Shown in pieces: positions 32,254 to 34,267 of a stretch of 64,000 bases of DNA; position 1 is the stretch's first letter; each line of letters opens with the position of its first letter. The notes beneath the pieces are model-generated. The model worked only from the letters and a program-made list of their open reading frames with translations. It was not told where the DNA came from and ran no database searches. Both the position numbers and the translations under genes were made by a program. The DNA comes from Methanobrevibacter sp. YE315 (GTDB lineage Archaea; Methanobacteriota; Methanobacteria; Methanobacteriales; Methanobacteriaceae), in NCBI RefSeq assembly GCF_001548675.1, contig NZ_CP010834.1:1-64000 (forward strand). The letters are read 5' to 3'.

Positions 32254-32937
32254 TTATTCTTCTAAATATCTATTAATTATGTCTTCGCCTTTAAGCAAGA
32301 CCAATCCGTTTTCTTCTGCATATTTACGTGCATCAGCAACGCTTGTAGCCTGTCCGGTTTCACCATCCATCATTTCACAAACTACACAAACAGGAGTGAC
32401 ACCAGCCATTTCACATAATGCAAGACCGATTTCTGTGTGTCCTCTTCTATTTTTAACCAAGCCGTCTGCACCTCTTAAAAGGCATACATGACCTGGTGAT
32501 CTGAAAGTAGCACCAAATTCATCAAATCTTTCTTCTTTCATCATGATGGCCATTTCACTAATGGTCATTGCTCTGTCATGGTCTGTAACGCCGGTGAATG
32601 ATTTTCTGTGATTAGTCCAAATTGAAAATGATGACCTTTCATCGTATGGAATGTCAGTTGGTGCCAATTTAGCTAATTCAGGGTATTTTTCAGTAGCTGC
32701 TTTCATAATATCCACCATGAATGGCAAATGAATAGCTTCACAAAAATCAGCATGTAAACAATTACAAATTAAACCACCAGCATCGTTTCTCATAGTTGCG
32801 ATTGATTTAGGAGTTACAAATTCAGAAGCGATAATCATATCAACTTCACCCTCCCTATCATCATCATCAAAAACAAGTACGAACTCACCGTTTCTAATAG
32901 CTTCTAGAGCCATATCTACATTTGTTTCTTGATTCAT
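32254..32937 (-). CDS. ribB: 3,4-dihydroxy-2-butanone 4-phosphate synthase
   Basis: The 227-residue archaeal-type RibB converts ribulose 5-phosphate to the four-carbon precursor of riboflavin. The acidic metal-binding loop DDDDREGEVD is at residues 24-33, followed by GGLICNCL, the TGVTDHDRAMT loop, FRSPGHVCLLRG and the HTEIGLALCEMAG segment. Length and spacing match methanogen RibB, not the bacterial RibBA fusion. An SD (AAGGAG) precedes the ATG. The leader contains an FMN riboswitch, so expression is likely shut off when FMN is abundant. ribK lies 1 kb upstream on the same strand, separated by a decayed gene. Confidence 0.92.
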   Translation of the reverse strand: MNQETNVDMALEAIRNGEFVLVFDDDDREGEVDMIIASEFVTPKSIATMRNDAGGLICNCLHADFCEAIHLPFMVDIMKAATEKYPELAKLAPTDIPYDERSSFSIWTNHRKSFTGVTDHDRAMTISEMAIMMKEERFDEFGATFRSPGHVCLLRGADGLVKNRRGHTEIGLALCEMAGVTPVCVVCEMMDGETGQATSVADARKYAEENGLVLLKGEDIINRYLEE

Positions 32938-32984
32938 AGTAACATCTCCTTATAGTACTAGAACCAGGGCTAAAAATAACTTCT

Positions 32985-33107
32985 TATTCTCTTCCATCCG
33001 GACTATCACCGTCGGTTTTGGAATCTCACCAAATCAACACTTCCCATGCTCGTGGACTTATATTAAAAATCACCACCGGTGGAGAATTTCACTCCGCCCT
33101 GAGAACG
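32985..33107 (-). ncRNA. FMN riboswitch (RFN element) in the ribB leader
   Basis: On the minus strand the RFN core blocks occur in order: CAGGGCGGAGTGAAATTC, then CCACCGGTGGTGA, a variable arm, CCACGAGCATGGG, a GGTGAGATTCC block, and GACGGTGATAGTCCGGATGG, closed by P1 (TTCTC at 33105-33101 with GAGAA at 32991-32987). These are the conserved sequences around the FMN-binding junction. The element ends about 48 bases before the ribB ATG. A T-rich stretch (TTATTTTT) follows P1, and the SD lies further on, so either termination or translation could be the output. FMN riboswitches are known mainly from bacteria. Confidence 0.93.
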
Positions 33108-33130
33108 TATTTAATCATTTTATCAATCAT

Positions 33131-33140
33131 GTATAAAATA
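33131..33140 (-). promoter_or_regulatory. TATA box of the FMN riboswitch-ribB transcript
   Basis: On the minus strand TATTTTATAC lies about 24 bases before the 5' end of the riboswitch P1 stem. This is the spacing at which archaeal transcription would begin, so the aptamer would start right at the 5' end of the RNA. Confidence 0.55.
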
Positions 33141-33312
33141 CTTTATGGTATTTTTATTGATTGAAAAATTGAACTGATAATACCTAATATCGTTTAAAAA
33201 AATTGTTACTATCTTAAAAAATTGATTTAACGTTATAAAATTGTTATTTAAAAAAACTAAGTAATTTAAATAGGATAATGAATAAAATAAGAATATTTAT
33301 TATAAATATGAT

Positions 33313-33896
33313 ATGATGAGTGAAAAACAAGAAGATATTATCTTTAAAGATGTATCTGAAGAAGAAGTTGATGTATTTTTAAAGCGATTAAATATTAAAT
33401 CAAAAAAGAAAAAATTAAATCCAACTGAAATACTTTATATCGATGTTGCAATATTAATTGCAGATATAATAATTGAATTAGATGAAGAACTAATAGATCT
33501 CTCATTAGTTCCTGTAATGAGTAGTAAAAATACACAGGAAGAACAGATAGAAAAATCTGTGAACTTAATATTATCAATTAATTTAGATAATTATAAGGTA
33601 AATAATCTAGTTAAAAGTATAGCTTACCTATAACTGATAAATTTTTAGAAGACAGTGAACACAAAACAATATTATGTGATGCATTAGGTGGAAAAATGAG
33701 TGCAGTATATGATTATGGACAAAGAAGAAAAGAAGAAGGAATAAAAGAAGGAATTAAAGAAGGAATTAAAGAAACATCTGAAAAAATGGCATTATACATG
33801 ATGAAAAAAGGAGAAGATGACAAAGAAATAATAAAAGAAACAGGATTAGCACCTGATGATATTAAAAAATTAAGAGAAAAACAAAAAAACACTTAA
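33313..33896 (+). pseudogene. Decayed accessory gene, PD-(D/E)XK/Rpn-like transposase family remnant
   Basis: Two frames read as one broken protein. The first (33313-33633, 106 residues) starts MMSEKQEDIIFKD and stops after KSIAYL. The second continues in another frame from about 33624 (LPITDKFLEDSEHK, then GGKMSAVYDYGQRRKEEG) to the stop at 33896. The GIKEGIKEGIKE charged helix and the ending are typical of the Rpn/PD-(D/E)XK putative transposase group found in many copies in Methanobrevibacter. Compared with my memory of such proteins, the central part between IIIELDEELIDL and SLVPVMSSKN is also deleted. A frameshift plus internal deletion suggest loss of function. It lies between ribK and ribB, genes that are neighbours in Methanocaldococcus. 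Confidence 0.6.
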
Positions 33897-34267
33897 AACT
33901 CAAGAGAAACAATATCTCCATCCTTTAAATCCAATTCATCTCTCAATTTGCACTCGGCAATAAATTCCAAATAATTTTCGTCATGAGTTGTTTTGGCAGG
34001 AAAAACAATTGCACCAACAATAACATCGTTCAATTTAGCCTCAATATATCTAACAGCCCCAAATCCTTCGTCTGGCTTAATCAAATTCTCACAATTACAC
34101 TTAATCTCATTTATTTCATCCAAATATTCATCGCTAACGATGACATTTAAAGTTCCAGGATAAGGAATAAAACCTAAATTTTTCTCAAATTCTTTAGTGT
34201 AGAACTCCTGTGACAAAAAATATGCTGCTTTTCCCAAACCGGTTGTTACTTCACCATCAACTTTCAT
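33893..34267 (-). CDS. ribK: CTP-dependent riboflavin kinase
   Basis: The 124-residue protein matches archaeal RibK (DUF120), which phosphorylates riboflavin to FMN using CTP. Visible motifs are VTTGLGKAAYFL (residues 6-17, nucleotide-binding loop), IPYPGTLNV, the GFGAVRYIEA strand and LRDELDLKDGD near the C-terminus. The usual N-terminal HTH of some homologues is absent, giving the short form as in Methanocaldococcus. It makes the ligand of the riboswitch that controls ribB downstream. Its stop overlaps the end of the convergent pseudogene by four bases. Confidence 0.9.
   Translation of the reverse strand: MKVDGEVTTGLGKAAYFLSQEFYTKEFEKNLGFIPYPGTLNVIVSDEYLDEINEIKCNCENLIKPDEGFGAVRYIEAKLNDVIVGAIVFPAKTTHDENYLEFIAECKLRDELDLKDGDIVSLEF

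Follow-up and report, generated by a model that had tools for sequence, protein, structure and literature searches.

We consider it likely that ribB of gut methanogens is controlled by an FMN riboswitch of the kind found before bacterial ribB, as in Escherichia coli, with the translational mechanism and the graft origin inferred below; there are no binding or expression data for it. The window analyzed here is the stretch of 64,000 nucleotides at positions 1-64,000 of contig NZ_CP010834.1 (GCF_001548675.1) from Methanobrevibacter sp. YE315. When scanned with cmscan, it gave a single match at gathering thresholds, the FMN riboswitch aptamer RF00050 at 33110..32982 on the minus strand, with 112.4 bits against a cut-off of 66.2 (E 2.3e-25). 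The match is untruncated (model positions 1-138 of 138), two non-standard pairs are marked in P1 of the cmscan alignment, and there is no other copy in the whole 2,273,296-base, single-contig genome. The initial annotation had described a complete FMN riboswitch without giving its strand, and the covariance-model search that it proposed as a check thus bears out the description, with a score well above cut-off.

The switch is followed at 44 nt, on the same strand, by ribB (32937..32254), which scores 256.6 bits with TIGR00506 (cut-off 177.45) and 185.9 bits with the archaeal NCBIfam model NF004437, below the required 262. About 25 nt 5' of the aptamer's 5' end is the TATA-like TATTTTATA (33140..33132, minus strand), directly preceded by the purine-rich ATAAAG. 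Aligning the 60 nt that lead up to TTCTC/TCTC in 61 genomes of g1, the genus to which the window belongs, yielded a conserved AAa.taTTTtata and aTACG, and the promoter pattern AAAGTATTTTA is common to g1 and a second genus, g9. A TATA box at a suitable distance, as claimed earlier, is thereby supported, and a transcription start near 33110 is predicted by inference from the sequence. The previous description was right about aptamer and promoter; it missed the expression platform, the transfer of codons and the neighboring ribK, which are included among the features of the locus:

33893..34267, minus strand: ribK, CTP-dependent riboflavin kinase (makes FMN), without winged-helix domain (PF01982, 117.5 bits)
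33313..33633 (33313-33887 at its widest), plus strand: degraded ORF between ribK and riboswitch, not part of the switch (two blocks 72-82% identical to a 283-aa ORF that is intact at this place in another genome)
33132..33146, minus strand: BRE/TATA-like promoter element (ATAAAG TATTTTATA), from its sequence and the pattern conserved in 61 g1 genomes
32982..33110, minus strand: complete FMN riboswitch aptamer (RF00050)
33096..33102, minus strand: UCAGGGC in the 5' strand of the aptamer, proposed partner of the anti-sequestor strand
32972..32976, minus strand: U-run directly 5' of GCCCTG, possible archaeal termination tract
32964..32970, minus strand: GCCCTGG, proposed anti-sequestor strand
32956..32966, minus strand: 5' arm of the sequestor hairpin, UGGUUCUAGUA
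32946..32950, minus strand: Shine-Dalgarno-like AGGAG in the loop region of the sequestor hairpin, from its sequence
32930..32941, minus strand: 3' arm of the sequestor hairpin, UACUAUGAAUCA (start codon and codons 2-3)
32254..32937, minus strand: ribB (TIGR00506 and RibB tree)

A search for RF00050 covered 151 phylum genomes and, as controls, four genomes of other archaea; it found the aptamer in 94 of the 151 (94 of 150 in the order), once per genome and above cut-off in 93. The matches fall in six genera: g1 (61/67), which we take to be the smithii-type Methanobrevibacter, g2 (1/1), g6 (4/4), g9 (15/19), g12 (12/20), presumably Methanosphaera, and g16 (1/1). The four controls, M. jannaschii, H. 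volcanii, S. acidocaldarius and M. acetivorans, had none. A RibB-type ORF begins 40-210 nt downstream of the switch in 94 of 94 cases, so that the comparison of ribB leaders across Methanobacteriales suggested beforehand places every match before ribB. The six g1 genomes without a match include G072, with a partial aptamer at a contig end; G076 and G065 have ribB close to a contig end, and G100 carries a ruined aptamer-like leader that gave no cmscan match even at E 0.1. Neither ribB nor ribK was matched in the remaining two, G068 and G073, or in G009 (g5); these three are possibly riboflavin auxotrophs or have assembly gaps. Among the 94 matches, that of G081 (L124:1158-1210, minus strand) scores just 33.6 bits owing to an internal deletion that joins ACCG to GGATGG, which could be real or an assembly error. 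The ribK-ribB gap of locus L146 holds a decayed FMN aptamer that has lost its core motifs and GCCCTG but still has an MNQD start and some of the start hairpin; it is a natural loss control.

Downstream of the aptamer, GCCCTG or a near variant precedes the start codon in all 93 archaeal leaders examined (G081 was left out). In the window, all seven positions of GCCCTGG (32970-32964) can pair with UCAGGGC (33102-33096) in the aptamer, and over the 93 leaders this proposed anti-sequestor has seven pairs in 78, six in 14 and five in one. The variant GCCCGGG of G099 cannot be read as compensatory, since it breaks two of the pairs. Directly 3' of GCCCTGG, UGGUUCUAGUA is able to pair with UACUAUGAAUCA, that is, with the start codon and codons 2-3, in a hairpin of -9.1 kcal/mol when folded alone. 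The same module stands before bacterial ribB in E. coli, Vibrio, Desulfovibrio and Sporomusa. Of 76 bacterial ribB loci, 70 have GCCCTG no more than 600 nt from the start, and all 28 bacterial loci scanned with cmscan carry RF00050.

Of 11 possible sequestor pairs, a mean of 10.0 is formed in the 93 archaea and 9.3 in 67 bacteria (77 rows minus six without the motif and four with it more than 60 nt away). Slid arms gave 2.8-5.2 pairs, and re-dealt arms reached the observed pairing in 0 of 1000 deals for archaea, bacteria and their union alike. Re-dealing ignores kinship, and these counts are not probabilities. Within single genera the observed pairing was reached in 383 (g9), 152 (g6) and 7 (g12) of 1000 re-deals, and there is no sequestor covariation beyond chance within g1, where all 1000 reached it. 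The clearest exchange concerns the base just 5' of the start codon, whose pair is G-C in most bacteria (59 of 67) and A-U in most archaea outside g12 (77 of 81). Since the UGGUUCUAGUA/UACUAUGAAUCA pairs are kept across archaea and bacteria, the start-codon hairpin that characterizes a translational switch of the E. coli type is present; a search for a hairpin-plus-T terminator returned 0 terminator-like sites at 32900-33400, so the locus does not qualify as an FMN switch with an intrinsic terminator.

From these elements a translational off-switch can be proposed. At low FMN, UCAGGGC of the aptamer would pair with GCCCUGG, the start-codon hairpin would be weakened and RibB would be made. FMN derived from RibK, encoded upstream and outside the switch, would bind and close the aptamer, releasing GCCCUGG, whereupon the full UGGUUCUAGUA/UACUAUGAAUCA hairpin could form, hide the start codon and lower RibB synthesis. 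Repression of ribB through hiding of its start codon is the most likely effect of FMN binding, although this is inferred without evidence from binding or expression. Folding calculations, with energies that include neither ligand nor tertiary structure, support the model in part. With the aptamer locked, the start region became costlier to open in 51 of 60 g1 leaders (mean 3.9 to 5.7 kcal/mol), 13 of 16 bacteria and three of four g6 leaders, but in only 7 of 15 from g9 and 6 of 12 from g12. For the window, the calculated anti-sequestor probability is 0.95 with the aptamer free, and locking it shifts the sequestor probability from 0.10 to 0.59 and the opening cost only from 2.37 to 2.85 kcal/mol. 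Strict mutual exclusion of the two helices, which we had considered, was not borne out by folding; as they overlap by only about three bases, the switch may work by a shift in stability instead. The MNQ start is missing from three g1 genomes (G046, G041 and G105), and these must differ; in at least two of them folding yields no sequestor.

The next gene upstream of the switch on the same strand is ribK (34267..33893), and its product covers just the C-terminal part (92-215 of 224) of the HTH-kinase model NF010762, lacking the winged-helix part. We found ribK in 136 of the 150 genomes of the order, in open frames of 72-185 aa except for one of 356 aa, a ribK-ribB fusion; apart from that fusion, these frames are too short for an HTH-kinase regulator, and no such regulator turned up in the order, whether or not a genome has the switch. 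A direct replacement of an HTH-RibK regulator by the switch was rejected because RibK without HTH is found in switch-less genomes too. The fusion forms a single reading frame of 350 aa at L127:210-1262 (minus strand) in a switch-less sister genus, g3. In switch-less genomes such as G143, G002, G136 and G006, ribK and ribB are close neighbors on the same strand, and in g1 the switch is located between them. For 57 of the 61 g1 switches ribK is on the same contig and strand (in the other four it was not found or is on another contig), at a spacing of 43-89 nt in 37 and, because of inserts, 354-3312 nt in 20; the window has 788 nt. Such spacings in 20 of 57 genomes mark the gap as a recurrent insertion place. 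Promoter, aptamer and start region are kept together across the inserts, which fits a separate transcription unit for ribB. The intact homologue of the window's degraded ORF (L028, 1826-2677) has no Pfam match, and the same gap in another genome holds an ORF with RRXRR and HNH domains by Pfam (L006:1730-2968, minus strand), which we presume to be IscB-like.

To trace the origin of switch and gene, we compared an aptamer tree (69 rows, 131 columns; 16 of the 61 g1 switches, all other archaeal switches and 20 bacteria) with a RibB tree of 87 rows (12 of 61 from g1, 6 of 15 from g9, all switch-bearing sequences of g2, g6, g12 and g16, 26 of the 76 bacterial loci plus E. coli, and 24 of 36 ribB genes from loci without a full switch match). 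The aptamers of g1, g2, g6, g9 and g12 (48 rows) form one clade (100/100), with the caveat that in 131 columns the AT-rich archaeal rows could inflate archaeal grouping. The RibB proteins behind these aptamers are split. Those of g1 and g2 fall within the native archaeal clade beside g3 (97 and 99, starred), and those of g6, g9 and g12 lie within the bacterial clade, their nearest bacterium being a Desulfuromonas sequence (98, starred); branches of 2.16 and 2.09 connect the two halves. When the 35 RibB rows with a switch from the five genera were constrained to group, the cost was 263.9 log-likelihood units (p-AU 0.00056). The archaeal-type RibB that the initial annotation placed downstream is therefore borne out by the tree, despite the shortfall against NF004437. 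It had also left a choice between a transferred element joined to a native gene and an under-reported archaeal riboswitch, and both are favored together: a bacterial-type aptamer and platform of one origin in five genera stands before a native archaeal RibB in g1, and the element occurs in over half of the phylum genomes searched. In the aEF-2 tree, g1, g6 and g9 are joined (88/92), followed by the switch-less g3 (100/100), with g12 apart, and transfer between methanogen genera probably occurred as well.

The first codons tell of the same junction. A start of the form ATGAATCA[AT]GA[AG] is present in 53 of 61 g1 genes and 28 of 31 from g6, g9 and g12, and in none of 76 bacteria; its codon-4 Glu, common to both archaeal sets, is likewise absent from the 76 bacteria. 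Native ribB without a switch mostly starts with ML or MI followed by KKALKALKNGEF-like residues. These patterns suggest that the first codons were probably carried along with the hairpin that they form, and one aptamer clade over two deeply separate RibB clades points to a graft in which native archaeal ribB received a translational FMN switch from bacteria together with its first codons. By this reconstruction, a bacterial riboswitch-ribB unit would have entered gut methanogens; in g1 the switch and about the first four codons would have been joined to native ribB within the old ribK-ribB arrangement, and the sister genera g6, g9 and g12 would have kept the bacterial ribB behind the switch. 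In three g12 genomes (G111-G113), a native ribB lacking the switch is found alongside a bacterial ribB that has it, plausibly an intermediate state.

A separate bacterial acquisition in each genus, with the g1 copy before native ribB independent of the rest, appears improbable to us. It does seem to describe g16, since both the aptamer and the RibB of G140 group with bacteria, yet the single aptamer clade of the other five genera speaks against it, as do the codon-4 Glu that g1 shares with g6, g9 and g12 and the AAAGTATTTTA pattern shared by g1 and g9. The unit in G140 (L002) has the highest aptamer score of all (134.4 bits) and no ribK match, and looks separately acquired. We give almost no credence to the aptamer being a non-functional relic of transfer retained by chance. 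Function has not been shown, and decay is seen in G100 and G081, but 93 of 94 archaeal matches score above cut-off, and promoter, aptamer, GCCCTG and start hairpin have stayed together even where inserts separate them from ribK.

Whether control might instead be mainly transcriptional turns on a U-run in the leader. A T5 run occurs within the 14 nt before GCCCTG in 57 of 60 g1 leaders, 15 of 15 from g9, four of four from g6 and 8 of 12 from g12, versus 2 of 70 bacteria; letter shuffles of the same segment predict 18.6, 1.0, 0.7 and 2.0, respectively, and no other 14-mer of the g1 leaders has such a run (0 of 760). In a transcriptional scheme, the U-run would be a terminator for aCPSF1, also named FttA, when the leader is untranslated or ligand-bound, as a counterpart of Rho at E. 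coli ribB. The excess of T5 over shuffles and over bacteria favors it, as does the dependence of termination on polyU and aCPSF1 described for a methanogen in PMC10450193; the parallel with Rho-dependent control of E. coli ribB is drawn from PMC5780412. Against it, the genomes are AT-rich and bacteria too have a pyrimidine-rich tract at this position (0.68 versus 0.56 upstream), the U-run lies 5' of GCCCTG, so that pairing of GCCCTG cannot act until polymerase has passed it, and control by transcription alone leaves the conserved start-codon pairing unexplained. We thus regard mainly transcriptional control as possible but doubtful, and prefer hiding of the start codon, to which the U-run suggests, without proving, an added layer of transcription termination. 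More speculative than the graft itself, and offered only tentatively, is that it was retooled across domains: switch and first codons would have moved from xenologous to native ribB, a TATA element been gained, the pyrimidine tract turned into a U-tract, and start-codon hiding by FMN become coupled to aCPSF1/FttA termination, in a manner resembling the coupling of E. coli ribB to Rho.

The aptamer class is long known, and any Rfam scan could reveal a match in this archaeal family; an FMN riboswitch match in M. ruminantium reportedly serves as a worked example in the Infernal guide. An Infernal annotation of the M. ruminantium genome is mentioned in PMC5780412, and with that example the occurrence of the aptamer is in itself nothing new. 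A 2013 survey stated that none of the widespread bacterial riboswitches other than TPP had been found in archaea (PMC3766115), and no paper on FMN switches in methanogens was found in the open-access literature searched. Within that literature, four things are new: the spread of the switch through the lineage, its platform of bacterial type, its inferred graft onto a native gene and the U-run of the archaeal leaders. Gut methanogens offer a lineage-wide candidate with a clear on/off model and, as controls, copies that have broken down naturally. They also provide a case in which a riboswitch has changed genes, since one aptamer clade stands before RibB proteins of two deeply separated clades. 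It can be tested directly whether the ribosomes and terminators of archaea respond to an RNA switch from bacteria, and whether methanogens are affected by roseoflavin and other flavin analogues.

Among known systems, RbkR, the HTH-riboflavin-kinase repressor of other archaea, provides FMN-linked control of riboflavin genes; it is a protein regulator, whereas RibK of the window lacks the HTH part. The fluoride riboswitch of Thermococcus kodakarensis is natural to an archaeon and, according to PMC8241225, thought to be translational there, but differs in aptamer and ligand. The E. coli ribB switch acts at translation start (Pedrolli et al. 2015, as described in PMC12453403). It shares with the window the aptamer class, GCCCTG, the start-codon hairpin, the MNQ codons and the position directly before ribB; the window differs in its archaeal TATA promoter, in the U-run 5' of GCCCTG, in having A-U instead of G-C in the hairpin, and in the native archaeal RibB behind the switch. 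Aptamer clade and platform are the same in the switches of g9 (Methanobrevibacter) and g12 (Methanosphaera-like), which keep the transferred bacterial RibB, whereas g1 has the native one.
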